21,981 nucleotides of DNA from a virus, in IMG/VR virus record IMGVR_UViG_3300002483_000045, positions 9,613 through 31,593 of that record. One strand, 5' to 3'. The position numbers and the translations under genes were made by a program. The notes beneath the pieces are model-generated. The model searched no databases, had not been told where the DNA came from, and was given only the letters and a program-made list of their open reading frames with translations. Positions 8,120 through 21,940 of this stretch are shown here, piece by piece (position 1 is the stretch's first letter; every line of letters starts with the position of its first letter).

Positions 8120-8656
8120 TTAGGCGCTTTTTAAATGATTATAAAGGTCTTTTCCTAATTTCTCTCCCACATCTTTATCTGATTTATAATGCACTCTTGC
8201 AATAATTCTACTTTTAGATATGTTATCTGCAACCCTTTCAAATTCGTTTGACATTTCGGGAAACATATCCGACAAAACAAGTGATATTAATTTGCTTTGA
8301 GCAGAATGACCTGAAGGAAACGCAGGGGTTTGAGCACTTTTCATTTTATGATAAGATAAATCTATGTCAAACTTTTTTGCTAATTCATTCGGGCGTGGTC
8401 TATCATGATAATTTTTTATACGTAAAATTACTGGTTGAGATTGTTCAATCAACTCATTCACTAAAGCAGCTGGATATGTTCTTGTTTTATTTTTAAAAAG
8501 CTGTTTAAACGCTTTGTCAATATCGTCATATCTATTAGCAAATGAAGTATCTAACTTCTGAGTTTGCAAAGACTTTATTTCGTTTAATGTTTTTAAACTA
8601 AAATCAGAAGGGTAGTTTATATGTTTATATTTATTGATATTAAAATCACTAAACAT
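8120..8656 (-). CDS. PAP2-superfamily acid phosphatase, 178 aa
   Basis: All three PAP2 (class A acid phosphatase / lipid phosphate phosphatase) signature motifs are present in order and with exact spacing: K-x6-RP as KNYHDRPRP (81-89), PSGH as PAFPSGHSAQS (111-121, catalytic His117), and SR-x5-H-x3-D as SRIIARVHYKSD (149-160, nucleophile His156). The family removes phosphate from phosphomonoesters or lipid phosphates through a phosphohistidine intermediate. I see no signal peptide and no convincing transmembrane helices, so it would be a soluble cytoplasmic or virion-associated enzyme, unlike most secreted or membrane relatives. It starts six bases after the portal stop and precedes the scaffold gene, so it is made with head proteins. 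The substrate is unknown. Many phages keep a head protease gene in this slot, but there is no protease motif here. Confidence 0.92.
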   Translation of the reverse strand: MFSDFNINKYKHINYPSDFSLKTLNEIKSLQTQKLDTSFANRYDDIDKAFKQLFKNKTRTYPAALVNELIEQSQPVILRIKNYHDRPRPNELAKKFDIDLSYHKMKSAQTPAFPSGHSAQSKLISLVLSDMFPEMSNEFERVADNISKSRIIARVHYKSDKDVGEKLGKDLYNHLKSA

Positions 8657-13344: not shown

Positions 13345-13597
13345 ATCCTTTAGGTAAGTTATTTGTTTTTATTTCTCTTCCCTCAAGTTTATCTCGTTCT
13401 TCATCTATTCTTTTTAATATTTCAAAAGCATCAAAAATGGCAAGCTTTTTGGTAGCAGCTGCATTTTTTAATCTATCAGCAGCAAGCTCGTCATCTGGGT
13501 CAGGCTTTATAATTTTTTCTTTTGCAACATCAATTAATTCTTTGACAGCTTTTTCACCTGCATTTATTATTTCTAATTTAATTGCTTTTGTGTCCAT
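13322..13597 (-). CDS. Putative terminase small subunit, 91 aa
   Basis: This is a short, almost entirely helical and charged protein: AIKLEIINAGEKAVKELIDV (5-24), a segment DPDDELAADRLKNAAATKKL (33-52), a further helix AIFDAFEILKRIDEERDKLE (53-72), and a basic Lys-rich tail. Its place immediately upstream of the large terminase, overlapping it by 23 bases, and its size fit a small subunit that recognises DNA and assembles in a ring. I remember similar sequences ahead of terminase in uncultured marine phages, without assigned function. No clear helix-turn-helix can be confirmed by eye, so the call rests on position, size and composition. Its start overlaps the end of the GroES-like gene by 20 bases, so the three genes are translationally linked. 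Confidence 0.8.
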   Translation of the reverse strand: MDTKAIKLEIINAGEKAVKELIDVAKEKIIKPDPDDELAADRLKNAAATKKLAIFDAFEILKRIDEERDKLEGREIKTNNLPKGFAERKSK

Positions 13598-14156
13598 TAT
13601 TTAAAGTAATATTTTTAGTATACATCCTATAAAGCTTTTCATCATCTATTGTAAATTCATATTCACTATTCGGTTGAAAAGAAACTTTATCCCCTGGATG
13701 TACATTTAATTTTTCTAATTGTTCATTTCCATATTTGACAACACCCCATAAAGGTTCTTCTGTTTCAGCTACATCTATATACCTTTTTTTCATAGGTATA
13801 GGTTTTATAAAACAAAATTTATCATGGCTATACCACTTGCCATTTTGCTTATACATATAAAACTGAAAATTGTCAACTAAGAATAAATCATCTATAAGCC
13901 AACTTCTTCCACTTTTTTGCCTACCATAAATATCGTTATAATATTTAAAAACATTATGGTGTACAACAAGCGTGTCGCCTATTTTTATTTTACCCTGATA
14001 GTTAATAGGAGTGTTAACCACCGTAGCAAATCGTGTAGAAACTGTGTGGTCTTCTTCTGATGTACTTATGAAGAACTTTTTATCACCATAATATTTTATA
14101 TTATCATAACGCCTATCGTTGTAGGGTTTTACTATAAAACAAAAAGGTGATTGCAT
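13578..14156 (-). CDS. Double GroES-like (Cpn10-type) protein, 192 aa
   Basis: The protein appears to be two tandem Cpn10-type barrels. Copy one has FIVKPYNDRRYDN (7-19), which resembles the GroES start with its KPLxDR pattern, then a polar loop (25-41), FATVVNTPINYQGKIKIGDT (43-62) and LVVHHNVF. Copy two has FIKPIPMKKRYIDV (116-129), EPLWGVVKYGN (134-144), VHPGDKVSFQPNSEYEFTID (152-171) and KLYRMYTKNITL. The order KP, then G-x-V, then GD-x-V, then a final strand with Y and I matches GroES barrels twice. Known phage relatives in function are T4 gp31 and RB49 CocO, which replace GroES for folding the capsid protein. A similar role here is inference; alternatively it is a barrel-shaped structural protein. 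It starts at TAATG, sharing one base with the preceding stop. Confidence 0.75.
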   Translation of the reverse strand: MQSPFCFIVKPYNDRRYDNIKYYGDKKFFISTSEEDHTVSTRFATVVNTPINYQGKIKIGDTLVVHHNVFKYYNDIYGRQKSGRSWLIDDLFLVDNFQFYMYKQNGKWYSHDKFCFIKPIPMKKRYIDVAETEEPLWGVVKYGNEQLEKLNVHPGDKVSFQPNSEYEFTIDDEKLYRMYTKNITLNNGHKSN

Positions 14157-15210: not shown

Positions 15211-15939
15211 TTATGGGGGAGTTATAGGTGTGCCAATTATATTATTTATTTTATTCGATGCTCTGGCATTTACTTCATCTATTTTTGTGTTTACAACACC
15301 AATAACATCATTATCATATCCCTCAGTATAATCTATTACTAAACGTATAGGATATGTAGTGCTTTTCATTCTTGCACCTGACTGAAATGTGGTATTAAGA
15401 GTAGGTGTTGAGGCGTCATAATCATAGCTCTTATTTACAAGGGCTACATTTAAGTAACCATTAGTGTTCATATCAGTCACTCCTGCCGAGTTAATTGTAA
15501 ACTGATTTGGTGTTGAGGTGCTTGTGCTCCAAGAAGAAATAGAGCTTTGAGAATATGGTTGACTAAAATCTAAATCATTATACATAGCAGTAGTCAGTGT
15601 TGTTGTGCCTCCACTTCCTCCCCATGCTGTAGACTCAACTATATAAGCATCACTTGTGCTTTGAGAATAACCATATATTTGCAAGGTTGCTGAGTTTATT
15701 GTACCTGGAACAGATGATACATCAAAAAACAAAAATGTTCTGTAAATACTTCCACTTACACCGCTTCTACCAAAAGCGTGAGACGCCCTTATTGCTTGTG
15801 ATTGGCTTGATGTGCTGGTAAAAGTAGTGGCTTGAGTACCAGTACTTGCATTTCGTACATCAGTAAGCCAGTTACTTATATTAAACTGAAAGTTTCCTAT
15901 TCTTCCTTGTAAACCCGCTGTGACGTTTTGTGTTGGCAT
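15211..15939 (-). CDS. DNRLRE-domain-like virion protein, 242 aa
   Basis: Residues about 64-92 (SIYRTFLFFDVSSVPGTINS, then ATLQIYGYS) match the hallmark of DNRLRE-type beta-jelly-roll domains, in which an R-x-F-L-x-F-D strand is followed by a turn and an A-x-L-x-L/I-Y strand. The remainder is Ser/Thr-rich with aromatic strands (FTINSAGVTDMNTNGYLNVA, YPIRLVIDYTEG), as in carbohydrate-binding or adhesive surface domains. The last 35 residues switch to a helical, loosely repeated segment (VIGVVNTKIDEVNARASNKI), a style seen at the ends of phage tail proteins. There is no signal peptide, as expected for a virion component. It starts two bases after the methyltransferase stop. Inference: an adhesin or fibre accessory that may bind surface glycans; binding itself is not shown. 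Confidence 0.8.
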   Translation of the reverse strand: MPTQNVTAGLQGRIGNFQFNISNWLTDVRNASTGTQATTFTSTSSQSQAIRASHAFGRSGVSGSIYRTFLFFDVSSVPGTINSATLQIYGYSQSTSDAYIVESTAWGGSGGTTTLTTAMYNDLDFSQPYSQSSISSWSTSTSTPNQFTINSAGVTDMNTNGYLNVALVNKSYDYDASTPTLNTTFQSGARMKSTTYPIRLVIDYTEGYDNDVIGVVNTKIDEVNARASNKINNIIGTPITPP

Positions 15940-15941
15940 AA

Positions 15942-16505
15942 TTAATATTGTTTCTGAGGAAGATAATAAATGTTTTTAGTATAATAATTATTTTCAGGCG
16001 GGGTTATATCTATGTGTTCATAAGCAACTTCTTCAATTCCAAAACTATTTGAAGCCTCGGTTTTACCATTCCACCATGTTGCAACGCCCCCTTCTTTTAC
16101 CAAGCTTGGTAGATGTCCCCCAAAAGAATTAACATCTTCATCACCATAAGTATCATAAAATACACCATCATATTCTGACAAGACCGAAAGGTTGTCTATC
16201 CAAGAGCCTTCAATAATAGTTACATTACTTTTTCCTTGAGCCCACTCTTTTGCTTTGACAATTATTTGGGGATGATTTTCTACTATCGTATGTGAAGCGG
16301 GATTGTTTTGTTGAATATAGTTTGCACTTATACCCATACCAAAACCTATCTCTAATATATCTCCTCCATTGATGCACACATAATCTGCATGTTTCTTCAT
16401 AAGACCATCTTCCCAATTCATCATAACTTGATGCTCCTCATTAGCCTCGTCTATGAAGTAAATTTTATTTTCTTCAAATATTAATGTTCTTTCCGTATAA
16501 TTCAT
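15942..16505 (-). CDS. SAM-dependent methyltransferase of the GAMT / RMT2 (guanidino/arginine N-methyltransferase) type, 187 aa
   Basis: The sequence follows guanidinoacetate N-methyltransferase and its relative arginine methyltransferase RMT2 block by block: VMMNWEDGLMKKHA (27-40; family pattern WExxxM), SAM motif I ILEIGFGMGIS (50-60), acidic motif HTIVENHPQ (72-80; family IIExHP), NVTIIEGSWIDNLS (94-107; family GxW), FYDTYGD (116-122; family YDTY), and KEGGVATWWNG (137-147; family GG, then N). Glu32 and Asp118 fall where mammalian GAMT uses Glu and Asp to bind the guanidino substrate. It is shorter than mammalian GAMT (about 236 aa), the shortfall being at the N-terminus and between the GG motif and the C-terminus. 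It lies two bases from the fibre gene before it and two from the DNRLRE-like gene after it. The substrate is unknown: a free guanidino compound or an arginine side chain of a virion or host protein are both possible. Confidence 0.88.
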   Translation of the reverse strand: MNYTERTLIFEENKIYFIDEANEEHQVMMNWEDGLMKKHADYVCINGGDILEIGFGMGISANYIQQNNPASHTIVENHPQIIVKAKEWAQGKSNVTIIEGSWIDNLSVLSEYDGVFYDTYGDEDVNSFGGHLPSLVKEGGVATWWNGKTEASNSFGIEEVAYEHIDITPPENNYYTKNIYYLPQKQY

Positions 16506-16507
16506 AC

Positions 16508-19486
16508 TTAATTGTTTTTAACCCAAGTATTATCAGGGCAAAAGTAAATATCATCACTACTTATTGCATATCCTAAAACTCTTGCGTAAGAGTTTGTAGC
16601 TGTAGGTACAGTAGTAGTAAACGTACCAGAAGTAGAAGATAAATATAAAGGAGACCCTAATTGGTATCCATGTGAAGCTTTTCTAAACACTCCGTGTGTC
16701 AACATACCATTGTTAGAACTTGAGCCTGTAGCAACAGCTAAGAGCCTTATAGCATTTGCTGAAGTATTAGCTACGCTTATCCAAGAACCAAAAGAGGACA
16801 TTGCATATACAGTGCCTGCTGTCACACTTGTTGTGCCCGCAGATATAGATAAACCGCTTCCGCCTGACCCGCTTGCCGCTGCTTGAGACATTAGAATCTG
16901 AGACGCAGAACCTAACGACATGTCTGTATTTGCAGCTAAAGAAATTTCATTTGCGGTTACAGAAACTAAATCATCGTCAATTGAAAATTGATTTTTGCCG
17001 ACAGTTATAAACTTAATTAATGCAGTATCATCATTTTCCTCTGTATCACCTATTAATAAAGTTTGTGAGCTTCCTGAATTTGATAAAACTCTTTGACCTC
17101 CCGCTCCTGAAAATTGTGCTCCAAACCAAAAGTCTCCTCCTTCTACAGCAAAATCCCCTGTAGCTTGGGCGTTAGTTCCATTATCAAAAATTGAAGAGTT
17201 AGCTAAATTAATAGAACCAGTAAATCTTGGAACCCTGTTTACGGTTGCTCCTGAAGTAATAGTATTACCTGCATTAGTTGTATAACCAGCTCCATTAGTT
17301 AACTGGTTGTTGTTGGTTATTCCATTAGTTATAGTAACAGTATTTCCTGAACGAGCAGTAGTTATATTGGTGCCACCAGCAATATCTACCGTTTCTCCAT
17401 CATCTATTGTTGCGGTACCACCACTATCAGCTGTTAACTTCCAACTGCTCATTGTCCCACTTCCAGTAGCATTGAAAGTAATGGTTTCATTACTACCTTG
17501 ATTTAATGTAAATGAACCACCTCCAGTTAACCCTGTTCCTGCAGTTAATGTTATCGTGTTGTTGTTTACTGTAGGACTGGTAGGCATTGTTACCGTCTTA
17601 ACATTTATAGCAGTAACATGTCCTGTAGCATTTGAAGTTACACTATCTACCGCTGTGAATGTTCCTCCAGAACCTGGAGAATCTGTACTGGTTGTATCGG
17701 TTCTTGATGTGTTATCATGATTTATAGTTCCAGAAGTAGTAATAGGGCCTCCCGATAAATATGTACCTGTAGCTACTGAAGTTACAGTACCACCACTATC
17801 ACTGTCTGGAGAAGTAATAGTCATTACATAAGGGTCAGCCGATGTTCCAGTACCAGATAAATTAGTTCCTAATGTACCAGTAGCTGCTACAAATTTTAAA
17901 TATTTATTAGTACTTCCGCTTAAAGTTTTGTCATCATCATCATCATCTCTTACAACCCACTCGGTAAATGTTTCTGGTACATTTGGAGAATCATTAGTTA
18001 TCGTAATTGTACCACTTGATGTAATAGGTGAACCTGAAACAGATATGCCTGTTCCTCCACTTATAGCTACTGAAGTAACTGTTCCATCATTATTAGTAAA
18101 AGGCAATTCTGATACATTATAATAATCTACATTGTTTGAGCCGTCACTAAGAGGAAGATGCCAAGTTCCTGCAGGTGTTCCTGAGCCAGCACCAGCAGCT
18201 AAAATAAAGTTATCTGTACCTGCATAATCTACAGCAAGCGTAGCGATACCCGATGTTGCACCGCCTTGTAAACCAGCGCCCGAGGCAACGGCTGTAATAT
18301 CGCCAGTATTATTGGTAAACGGTAAATCGGAAACATTTGCATAAGATACTGTGCCGTCGACAGAGTACCATATTGCTGCTCCCGTATCGACAGTGTTACC
18401 TGTCGCATTTGTTGCAGACAAGATTGCATTGTCATTCCCCGAATAGTCTATATTTACTGTAGGTGACGTAGCTGTTCCTGTTAGTGAAATTCCAGTACCC
18501 TCGTTTACACCTGTTACAGAACCACTTCCCGTACCTGCTCCTATTAAATTTCTTACCTCCGCAGCTGTAATACCTGTGTTTAGCGAGGGTGTAGAGCCAT
18601 CAGATAAAATAGCTGGTGTTCCTGTGTCATTTATTACACCTAAATTACTTCTTGCGTCAGCAGCGTTTGATGCACCAGTACCACCATTAGCCACAGATAA
18701 ATCAGTACCACTCCAGTCATCATTGCTTATGGACAATGTGCCTCCTAATGTAAGTATTGGTGTTGAGGTAGAACCATTATCTGATAATGTTATTCCATTA
18801 ACACTACCAGTACCAGTAACAGACTGTACAGTTCCTTGTGGAACACCTGCGACTTGAGTATCTACATAATTTTTAGACGCAGCATCTGTTGCAGCTGTTA
18901 CGGTGTCAATACCTTGTATTCTTCCAGTACCCCCTAAAACAATGTCACCACCATTAACATTTAAATCACCTGTAATTACAAAACTATCTACTTCATTATA
19001 AGATTCTGAATTACCACCAAACGAAGCTTCGTTTGTAACTCCCGATGTAACAACTTGAAATGGAGTTCCTGCACTTAATTTTGCGCGACCAGTAAAATAA
19101 CCCCCTGATGTTTCTGGATAAGCATTACCTGTATACTTAATAGCTATATAACTATTACTGTTGTAAGTACAAGAAATTAATCGGTAATCTTCTGAATCTT
19201 GTATAACTTGAAGTGTGGCTAAACAACCACCGAACATTTGACTTGAACCTGATGTGACTATAACATCTAAGGATACCGCTTGATAATTACCAGAAGTTCG
19301 GTCTATACGAATCGTTCCATTAATATCATTGCTTGCGGCATTTCTACATAATAAAATATATTGAGTAGAAGCATTATCAACCATATCAAAACGATAGTTG
19401 ACATAGTGGTCCTCCTGCATGTTTATTCTACCATCCAGGTTTATATTTTCGTCAGTGGTTGTGTCCGCTAAAAATCGAATCGGCAT
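16508..19486 (-). CDS. Tail fibre protein 2, repeat-rich, 992 aa
   Basis: The N-terminus MPIRFL matches MAIRFL of the neighbouring fibre and is probably a common virion-attachment end. Residues about 190-215 contain ATDAASKNYVD (199-209), and 264-284 contain SVANGGTGASNAADARSNLG, both classic tail-fibre repeat motifs. Residues 300-700 are Gly/Ser/Thr-rich beta repeats, including a copy of the block TSRTDTTSTDSPGSGGTF shared with fibre 1 and one SSWKLTADSGG unit. A run of six Asp lies at about residue 513. The C-terminal 115 residues form a distinct domain (TVYAMSSFGSWISVANTSAN, then YFCPDNTWVKNN), likely the trimer tip or receptor-facing end. It starts 12 bases after the fibre 1 stop and is followed after two bases by the methyltransferase. 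Role inferred: receptor binding. Confidence 0.87.
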   Translation of the reverse strand: MPIRFLADTTTDENINLDGRINMQEDHYVNYRFDMVDNASTQYILLCRNAASNDINGTIRIDRTSGNYQAVSLDVIVTSGSSQMFGGCLATLQVIQDSEDYRLISCTYNSNSYIAIKYTGNAYPETSGGYFTGRAKLSAGTPFQVVTSGVTNEASFGGNSESYNEVDSFVITGDLNVNGGDIVLGGTGRIQGIDTVTAATDAASKNYVDTQVAGVPQGTVQSVTGTGSVNGITLSDNGSTSTPILTLGGTLSISNDDWSGTDLSVANGGTGASNAADARSNLGVINDTGTPAILSDGSTPSLNTGITAAEVRNLIGAGTGSGSVTGVNEGTGISLTGTATSPTVNIDYSGNDNAILSATNATGNTVDTGAAIWYSVDGTVSYANVSDLPFTNNTGDITAVASGAGLQGGATSGIATLAVDYAGTDNFILAAGAGSGTPAGTWHLPLSDGSNNVDYYNVSELPFTNNDGTVTSVAISGGTGISVSGSPITSSGTITITNDSPNVPETFTEWVVRDDDDDDKTLSGSTNKYLKFVAATGTLGTNLSGTGTSADPYVMTITSPDSDSGGTVTSVATGTYLSGGPITTSGTINHDNTSRTDTTSTDSPGSGGTFTAVDSVTSNATGHVTAINVKTVTMPTSPTVNNNTITLTAGTGLTGGGSFTLNQGSNETITFNATGSGTMSSWKLTADSGGTATIDDGETVDIAGGTNITTARSGNTVTITNGITNNNQLTNGAGYTTNAGNTITSGATVNRVPRFTGSINLANSSIFDNGTNAQATGDFAVEGGDFWFGAQFSGAGGQRVLSNSGSSQTLLIGDTEENDDTALIKFITVGKNQFSIDDDLVSVTANEISLAANTDMSLGSASQILMSQAAASGSGGSGLSISAGTTSVTAGTVYAMSSFGSWISVANTSANAIRLLAVATGSSSNNGMLTHGVFRKASHGYQLGSPLYLSSTSGTFTTTVPTATNSYARVLGYAISSDDIYFCPDNTWVKNN
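17931..17948 (+). repeat. Trinucleotide microsatellite encoding an Asp run in fibre 2
   Basis: The plus strand reads TCATCATCATCATCATCT; on the coding minus strand this is a GAT repeat giving six Asp in a row followed by Lys. Length changes would alter the Asp count without shifting the frame. Confidence 0.85.
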
Positions 19487-19498
19487 ATTAAATTAAAT

Positions 19499-21940
19499 TT
19501 AAGACACCTTCGTAATCAATATTTTAATATCGTTTGCTGATGGTGCTGTTGTAAAATCTACTGTTACTTGGTTTACAGTATTTCTCGTCACATCTGCATA
19601 AACAGTATCATAAGAACTGGCATCATACAGCTGAACCATTACATCCCTGGTTCCCAAGTTGTGAGTTACCGCTATTGAAGTTGCTCCTCCAATAAGGGCC
19701 GAATATTGTTCGTTAGACGCAATACATGTGCTAACTGCAGTACAGAAATCAGAAACCTGAGATGCTGTAATATCAATGTCTTGTGAACTAAGCGAAGTTA
19801 ATAAACCTTTTGCAGTTACAGTAGCAGAAAGTGATTTACCTGCACCACCATAAGAACCTGCACTTACGCCAGTGTTATCTAATGTTACAAATCCGTTAGC
19901 AGTTACTCCAAAGTTTGCACTGTCAAAACCAGCTACACCTTTTTGTGTTGCACCATCTGTAGCACCTGCTCCTGCAACATTTTGGTCTTGAATAACTACT
20001 GTGTAAACTGTTTGCGCTGGATTAGAACTTGCACTAATATCTTGATTTGCAAATATTAAATCACCAACCTCCAGTGTTTCCGAATAAAATGCCGTACCAG
20101 CGGTAGTTACTACAAAGAAGTCACCTAAGTCTAATGCTATGTTACTTGCTCCATCTAATGAACCATTACCCGCACCTAAATCTGTCGTTAAACCAGTGTT
20201 TGCATTATATCCTCCTTTAAACTGTCCAACGCCAGCAATAAGTGATTGAACTTGTCCTAAGTTAACACCATCTGTAGCAGCAGTACCTGCAGCTACATCC
20301 AATAGCTTGTTTGCGCCAAAGTCTACATCTGCTTCTGCATCACCCCATTGGTCTAAGTGTACATTGCTATATAATATTTTTTCGTTAGCTGTTCCATCTA
20401 CACCTACTAAGAAGTCTGCAGCAGGGTCAATAGTTGTAACTGTGTTTAATTCAGCTAAATCAAGATTAACTGTAACAGTACGCCCTGACTCTGCTGTGTC
20501 AATACCAGTAGAACCAGATACCGTCACTGTATTACCATTACCAACTGAAGACGAACCTGAGTCAGCAGCTATAGTCCAGTTATCCATAGTACCTGTACCA
20601 CCAGTATATGCTATGGTTACTTGACCACTACCATTATTTGTAGTAGATATATTTGCTCCCGCAGCAATAGTTATAGTGTCTTGGTCTGTAATTGTAGAAT
20701 CACTACCAGTTGTTGCAGCTAAAGTAATACTGTTGAATGGTAATGTGTTAGTTACAGTTAATGTATCAGTTGCTGAAGCAGCGGTTGAAATACCTGTACC
20801 ACCAGCAATATCTACTGTATTACCATCACTAATTGTTTGGTTAGTTCCACTGTCTCCTGAAAGAGTCCATGAGGTCATTGTTCCAGCGCCACCATCTGAT
20901 GCTGCCGTAATACGTCCTTGTTGGTCTACTGTTATGTTTGCAGATGTGTACGAACCAGGAGTTACAGCTGTGTCATCTAAGTCTATAGTAAGAGTTCCTG
21001 TTGTACCCGAACCAGCCAATGAAGTAGTAATACCTGTATCCCCTTGGAAAGAAACTGTGTTTCCACTATTTATTGTTTTAGGAGTAGCACTACCACCATC
21101 TGCCGCTGCAATCCAAGTATAACTTTCTGCACTTGGCATTGTAATAGTCTCTACATCTACAGCTGTCACGTGACCAGTAGAGTTTGTTGTAACACTACCA
21201 ATAACATCAAATGTACCACCATATCCAGGCGAAGCTGAACTTGTAGTATCACTTCTTGATGTTGTATCGTGATTAACCGTTAATGTATCTGTAGCAGAAG
21301 CTGCTGTTGAAATGTAAGTACCACCCGCTATATCAACTGTGTTACCGTCTGAAATAGTTTGTGAAGAACCACTGTCTCCACTTAATGTCCAAGATGACAT
21401 TGTTCCTGGAGCTGTTCCTGAACTTGCTGCAGTTAATCGACCTTGTTGGTCAACTGTAATACTTGCATAGGTATAAGAACCTGGAGTTACCGCAGTATCG
21501 TCTAAGTTAATAGTCAACGTATCTGTTGCACTTGCTACAGTAGAAATGGCTGTTCCTCCAGCAAATGTCGCAGTATTAGTTGAATTAATAGTTTGATTAG
21601 AACCACTGTCCCCAGCAAGAACCCAGTTAGCATATCCACTTAAAGTGGCAGCGATTGTTACTCCTCCTGAACCGTTACCAGTAGCTGTAATACCAGAGCC
21701 CGCAATAATTGTTGCAGTTCCTCCGTTAGATATTGTAGAAGAACTACCTGATGAACCAGCAAAAGTCCAAGAACTCATAGTTCCCGCACCTATATCTGAA
21801 AGTATTTGTGCTTTTGTTCGTCTTTCTATTAGACCTGAAGTAGATACCAATATACCGTCATAGGCGTTATTAGCATCCTGGTTTATTGTTGCGGTTACTG
21901 TACCGTCAATATTAAGTGCGTTTAAAAATCTTATTGCCAT
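19499..21940 (-). CDS. Tail fibre protein 1, seven-fold beta repeat, 813 aa
   Basis: After the N-terminal MAIRFLNALNIDG come seven recognisable units of about 45-50 residues of the type SSWTLSGDSGSSQTISDGNT then VDIAGGT-x-ISTAASATDTL; cores begin near residues 54, 104, 180, 273, 354, 401 and 451. Two copies of an inserted module, LDDTAVTPGSYTYASITVDQ (146-165; again at 320-340), and one block shared with fibre 2 (NHDTTSRSDTTSSASPGYGG, 223-242) separate them. Residues 495-813 are non-repetitive: DFGANKLLDVA, TDGVNLGQV, and a C-terminus THNLGTRDVMVQLYD with TVNQVTVDF that is typical of phage fibre tips. Its leader is A/T-rich with AAAGTAAAAAG and no Shine-Dalgarno sequence. It is the first complete gene of the window in transcription order. 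A fibre role is inferred from the repeats, composition and C-terminal motif. Confidence 0.87.
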   Translation of the reverse strand: MAIRFLNALNIDGTVTATINQDANNAYDGILVSTSGLIERRTKAQILSDIGAGTMSSWTFAGSSGSSSTISNGGTATIIAGSGITATGNGSGGVTIAATLSGYANWVLAGDSGSNQTINSTNTATFAGGTAISTVASATDTLTINLDDTAVTPGSYTYASITVDQQGRLTAASSGTAPGTMSSWTLSGDSGSSQTISDGNTVDIAGGTYISTAASATDTLTVNHDTTSRSDTTSSASPGYGGTFDVIGSVTTNSTGHVTAVDVETITMPSAESYTWIAAADGGSATPKTINSGNTVSFQGDTGITTSLAGSGTTGTLTIDLDDTAVTPGSYTSANITVDQQGRITAASDGGAGTMTSWTLSGDSGTNQTISDGNTVDIAGGTGISTAASATDTLTVTNTLPFNSITLAATTGSDSTITDQDTITIAAGANISTTNNGSGQVTIAYTGGTGTMDNWTIAADSGSSSVGNGNTVTVSGSTGIDTAESGRTVTVNLDLAELNTVTTIDPAADFLVGVDGTANEKILYSNVHLDQWGDAEADVDFGANKLLDVAAGTAATDGVNLGQVQSLIAGVGQFKGGYNANTGLTTDLGAGNGSLDGASNIALDLGDFFVVTTAGTAFYSETLEVGDLIFANQDISASSNPAQTVYTVVIQDQNVAGAGATDGATQKGVAGFDSANFGVTANGFVTLDNTGVSAGSYGGAGKSLSATVTAKGLLTSLSSQDIDITASQVSDFCTAVSTCIASNEQYSALIGGATSIAVTHNLGTRDVMVQLYDASSYDTVYADVTRNTVNQVTVDFTTAPSANDIKILITKVS

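Follow-up and report, generated by a model that had tools for sequence, protein, structure and literature searches.

A GAMT/RMT2-superfamily methyltransferase in a phage fibre operon, with a candidate arginine target in the adjacent CBM-like adhesin

In a viral contig from IMG/VR, 31,593 bases long, a gene for a SAM-dependent methyltransferase (MT) of the GAMT/RMT2 superfamily was found between a fibre gene and the gene for a CBM-like protein. Its catalytic residues were invariant in phage homologues, the order of the three genes was fixed across loci, and presence of MT was linked to an arginine, Arg58, in the CBM-like protein. The interpretation preferred here, which is given a probability slightly above even, is that MT, encoded by the phage itself, is an arginine N-methyltransferase acting on Arg58 of the CBM-like adhesin, hereafter the partner. 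Coordinates of the relevant features in the window, the whole stretch of 21,981 nucleotides that was analysed, are given in Table 1.

Table 1. Positions in the window of the genes and codons discussed in the text.
Feature	Position	Strand	Basis
Upstream gene of the operon, second fibre-like/structural protein (813 aa)	19499..21940	-	PHROG 2647 match, 7e-13
Fibre-like protein, 992 aa; carries the C-terminal domain conserved upstream of MT	16508..19486	-	Homology among upstream proteins
Fibre Arg969 codon, invariant with or without MT	16580..16582	-	Fibre-domain alignment
MT, GAMT/RMT2-superfamily SAM-dependent methyltransferase, 187 aa	15942..16505	-	Sequence and fold matches, AlphaFold2 pLDDT 96.8
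MT Glu32 codon, aligned with GAMT Glu45	16410..16412	-	Alignment; invariant in 81 non-redundant phage homologues
MT Asp118 codon, aligned with GAMT Asp134	16152..16154	-	Alignment; invariant in 81 non-redundant phage homologues
CBM-like partner, 242 aa, proposed substrate; beta-sandwich of DNRLRE/CBM96 type, NIxxVxxV repeats at the C-terminus	15211..15939	-	Pfam sub-threshold CBM96, AlphaFold2, Foldseek
Partner Arg58 codon, proposed methylation site; hairpin tip, flanked by strands 44-57 and 60-73	15766..15768	-	MT-linked conservation
Partner Arg67 codon, control residue conserved with or without MT	15739..15741	-	Column comparison

An earlier, sequence-only reading of this DNA had described an open reading frame with a series of methyltransferase blocks, and all of these were located in the MT frame: W31-E32, EIGFGMG (52-58), VENHP (75-79), GSW (100-102) and YDTY (117-120). 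The frame starts with an ATG at 16505 and encodes a class I methyltransferase, while the plus strand across 15942-16505 is stop-rich. On the minus strand, the gene order is structural protein, fibre, MT and CBM-like protein. Both gaps that separate MT from its neighbours measure 2 bases, in agreement with the same reading.

Among solved structures, GAMT was the sole strong match to MT, by sequence as well as by fold. A single-sequence phmmer search against all PDB sequences returned GAMT at 4.1e-13 and the next family at 0.027, and a profile of phage and bacterial relatives matched GAMT over the catalytic domain at 5e-37 (next family, 6e-5). When the AlphaFold2 model of MT (mean pLDDT 96.8) was submitted to Foldseek, human and rat GAMT took the top five places (9e-14 to 2e-12), and spermidine synthase came next at 1e-6. 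In neither type of comparison did a DNA, RNA or O-methyltransferase family score better than GAMT. Searches with MT yielded only sub-threshold generic methyltransferase matches in Pfam, nothing specific in NCBIfam and zero matches in PHROGs. Canonical PRMTs (types I-III) were absent from the Pfam and NCBIfam results and from the PDB matches listed, and RMT2 was absent among the PDB matches to the MT profile.

Glu32 and Asp118, which had been noted at the outset as retained guanidino-binding residues, aligned with Glu45 and Asp134 of rat GAMT. These form the guanidino-binding acidic pair of that enzyme, in which Asp134 accepts a proton from the guanidino substrate (PMC12471008). By this alignment and the fold match, E32 and D118 would be expected to face the methyl group of SAM. 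Both belong to a set of residues that is invariant in 81 non-redundant phage homologues (W31, E32, E52, G54, G56, E76, W102, D118, N146, N172, and Y174) and, in view of this invariance, MT looks active as an enzyme.

The likeness of MT to GAMT (PDB 3orh, 1xcj, 1khh) covers the fold, motif I (GFGM), the WE and YD catalytic segments, the acidic ribose-binding Glu and a C-terminal segment that resembles PP..YY. The phage protein differs from GAMT in lacking part of the region after the L-L-K-P-G-G strand, where the profile alignment showed a long stretch of GAMT without a counterpart, and in being fixed in a virion gene module. In a quick tree, which contained some long branches, the phage MTs formed a single clade with full support, which lay outside the branch of human, rat and Okeania GAMT. 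Because the phage clade falls outside the GAMT clade, comparisons of sequence and modelled fold place MT in the GAMT/RMT2 superfamily and not in GAMT itself. The initial designation as GAMT/RMT2-like was therefore retained at the superfamily level, while a creatine-forming GAMT orthologue was ruled out by the clade position and the partly missing C-terminal, substrate-closing region of GAMT.

RMT2 belongs to the same superfamily and has an additional N-terminal domain, whereas the phage MT is a bare domain of 187 residues. As a model of function, yeast Rmt2 is nevertheless close to what is proposed here, since this type IV enzyme has a single arginine in a single protein, Arg67 of Rpl12, as its target (PMC3365026). 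Fungi and plants are the groups in which RMT2 is known (PMC3365026).

MT proved common in aquatic virus contigs, with up to 384 confirmed stretches in IMG/VR scans (306, 361 and 384 with different queries, in overlapping sets). The first 80 loci had a long fibre gene before MT and a gene of approximately 235 aa after it. All downstream proteins (82/82) were mutually homologous, and a C-terminal domain was common to 75 of the 77 upstream proteins. In a later set, a CBM-like partner lay directly downstream of every non-redundant MT gene with room for it (108/108), and the fibre C-terminal domain was found upstream of MT in 91 of 99 cases. A search that started from the fibre domain identified phages in which fibre and partner are adjacent with no MT between them; the module can thus occur with or without MT. 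Relocation of the MT gene in such contigs was rejected, as no homologue was located elsewhere in the 32 contigs checked, nearly all of which had the fibre domain and lacked MT.

Three further loci are of note with respect to this distribution. In a tblastn search of 50,697 phage records, MT was detected in one only, that of the 635-kb uncultured phage LR745206 (L012 7974-8558); its MT is 43% identical and lies directly behind fibre-like genes, and no CBM-like partner was detectable in this phage. The MT of an 11.9-kb Flavobacteriales MAG contig (L085 4279-4839) is almost identical to phage copies, and this contig is probably phage sequence that entered the MAG during binning. At a third locus (L224 3348-4484), a far more divergent methyltransferase is flanked by the fibre domain on one side and, on the other, by a different adhesin that has just the C-terminal repeats in common with the partner; other enzyme-adhesin pairs may therefore use this slot. 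The loci of LR745206 and L224 both weigh against modification of Arg58 by MT.

The downstream neighbour had been described from its sequence as DNRLRE-like. Foldseek searches with its AlphaFold2 model (pLDDT 91.9) gave matches to a chondroitin-sulfate CBM (8wab, 1.5e-5) and to the alginate-binding CBM96 7vbo (2.9e-4), with modest TM-scores of 0.39-0.58, in keeping with a CBM96-like fold. At the sequence level, the Pfam CBM96 match scored 19.9 bits, below the curated cut-off of 26, and comparison of the partner profile with PDB gave chance matches only. No match was obtained in a tblastn search of phage records with the partner. The partner family was too divergent for a whole-alignment search and was therefore searched by subgroups. 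In addition to its sub-threshold Pfam score, the partner differs from CBM96 modules in being a phage protein that ends in NIxxVxxV repeats. Repeats of this type terminate partner proteins even where the N-terminal domain differs, and possibly represent the part that attaches to the virion.

When 41 divergent partners were aligned, column identity averaged 34%, and M1, R58, and R67 were the sole invariant positions. When partners were divided by presence or absence of MT, R67 was conserved in both sets and R58 was not. A scan of all 242 partner columns ranked Arg58 first for MT dependence (0.99 versus 0.19) and, second, its neighbour, the G of an RG pair. After removal of three rows with a non-homologous N-terminal domain, this position was Arg in 81 of 81 MT-linked partners and in 7 of 35 MT-less ones. 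Most MT-less partners had a KG instead of an RG turn, with Lys at the tip in 26 of the 35. In the predicted structure, Arg58 is located in a turn between two strands, and its sequence context is usually RG or RGG. Partners fetched after the hypothesis had been formulated all had Arg at the tip (39/39; 38 in the same column and one shifted by one residue in an otherwise similar GRGG); these are relatives of the first set and represent a consistency check rather than independent evolutionary events.

The statistical weight of this link depends on ancestry. A Fisher value of 1e-20 ignores ancestry and is not to be relied on. On the partner tree, MT presence changed approximately eight times and R58 three times; every R58 change paralleled MT and none ran in the opposite direction. 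A test of independent pairs on this tree was not significant, with five pairs on supported branches and too few changes, so that shared ancestry could account for much of the association. One nested case was informative, in which two MT-less loci with Lys (L175 and L214) contrast with a relative that has MT and Arg (L061). Seven MT-less partners retain Arg58, and no MT homologue was located elsewhere in their contigs, some of which are fragments. Retention of Arg in recent MT-less rows fits a residue that is required by the enzyme yet harmless without it, and equally fits shared ancestry.

A role for MT in modifying a virion protein, already raised as one option in the sequence-only reading, is favoured by the fixed order of fibre, MT and CBM-like genes together with the MT-linked Arg58. 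In the scheme envisaged here, MT would be co-expressed with the fibre and the CBM-like virion protein and would bind SAM by way of motif I and E76. A protein arginine would have its guanidino group clasped between E32 and D118, and a methyl group would then be transferred to a guanidino nitrogen of Arg58 at the hairpin tip of the product of the next gene, probably during virion assembly. In CBM96, Lys and Arg residues line the groove that binds alginate, and K27 and R36 among them are relatively conserved (PMC9971899). Lys27 and Arg36 of 7vbo are spaced by nine, as are Arg58 and Arg67 of the partner; the 7vbo sequence can be matched in this way with a one-residue gap, and the two pairs may be equivalent. 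In view of this spacing, methylation could alter a glycan contact. Arg58 would lie on that side of the adhesin which binds polysaccharide, and its methylation may tune the choice of glycan or receptor by the virion, or may shield the residue.

A broader form of this proposal is held more tentatively, at a little under even probability: that a widespread and so far undescribed class of aquatic phages carries its own protein-arginine methyltransferase for one residue of a glycan-binding adhesin. The tip would have to be Arg where the enzyme is present and would mostly be Lys where it is absent, and the phages would thereby alternate between methylated Arg and an unmodified basic residue as the receptor contact.

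Other targets of MT have to be weighed against Arg58. MT might methylate another arginine of the virion, with the invariant Arg969 of the directly upstream fibre as one candidate, while Arg58 is kept in MT-bearing lineages for glycan binding. The basic, alginate-binding groove of CBM96 (PMC9971899) offers a separate reason for conservation of Arg58, and independent changes of MT on the partner tree are few. However, Arg969 was equally invariant in MT-less fibres (37/37) and its counterpart is also kept in the fibre of the MT-less immuto phage, which made this residue uninformative as a telltale substrate. Moreover, no column of the fibre C-terminal domain depended on MT (maximum difference, 0.30), and use of Lys by MT-less partners indicates that basicity alone does not explain a strict Arg at the tip. 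This explanation is considered unlikely. Slightly less probable still is that MT produces a small guanidino compound bearing a methyl group, either creatine-like or methyl-arginine, for use by phage or host. This would accord with GAMT as the closest solved relative and with fusion of some cellular relatives to NRPS-like proteins, but the phage clade lies outside GAMT, the C-terminal GAMT region is partly absent, and no companion metabolic genes were seen around a gene that is fixed among virion genes.

It is also improbable, to about the same degree as methylation of another virion arginine, that MT acts on a host protein or other target that is not a virion arginine, or is a non-catalytic fold that serves as an assembly chaperone, and is placed in the fibre operon just for late expression. 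Host protein methylation was raised in phage-infected Cellulophaga cells (PMC13288928), although, according to that study, no methyltransferase genes are known in the three Cellulophaga phages concerned. Retention of the same neighbours across divergent phages argues against a target elsewhere, and invariance of the catalytic residues against a non-catalytic role.

The same 2026 study is counted in favour of modification of Arg58 by MT. It reported methylated Lys and Arg in proteins and virions of the three phages, stated that phage protein methylation was previously unreported, and credited host enzymes because these phages were not known to encode methyltransferases (PMC13288928). Among the Cellulophaga phages in the records searched by tblastn, no MT homologue was detected; in the phage studied here, in contrast, the methyltransferase is phage-encoded. 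The two systems share a flavobacterial setting, as the terminase matched those of Flavobacterium 'elemo' phages and Cellulophaga phages (closest, MW202828.1, 72.5% identity), from which it is concluded that this phage probably infects Flavobacteriia. In the open-access literature searched, nothing relevant was found on GAMT-like or protein-arginine methyltransferases of phages, and phage protein methyltransferases that target the phage's own virion were undescribed. The module offers an enzyme together with a substrate that is likely and one residue that is predicted as the target; if the proposal is correct, arginine methylation would join the ways in which phages adjust receptor binding.

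GAMT-like domains were also encountered in cellular genomes. In several bacterial phyla, such domains are located C-terminally in large NRPS-like open frames (L103, L110, L124, L127, L135, L144), where guanidino methylation in peptide natural products is a possible function. In marine Rhodospirillaceae, a GAMT-like domain follows TPR-like repeats (L087, L088, L089, L091), and a conserved GAMT-like protein of approximately 263 aa occurs in Flavobacteriaceae genomes (L111, L114-L119, L122, L123, L126, L129-L133, L136-L138, L141-L143, L146). Elsewhere in the window, the minus strand carries, directly after the portal gene, a gene for a phosphatase-like protein of the PAP2 superfamily (8120-8656; Pfam PAP2, 7e-7, above cut-off) and, separately, one for a co-chaperonin GroES-like protein (13578-14156; PHROG 13932, 1.9e-18) that, with 192 aa, exceeds normal GroES in size.
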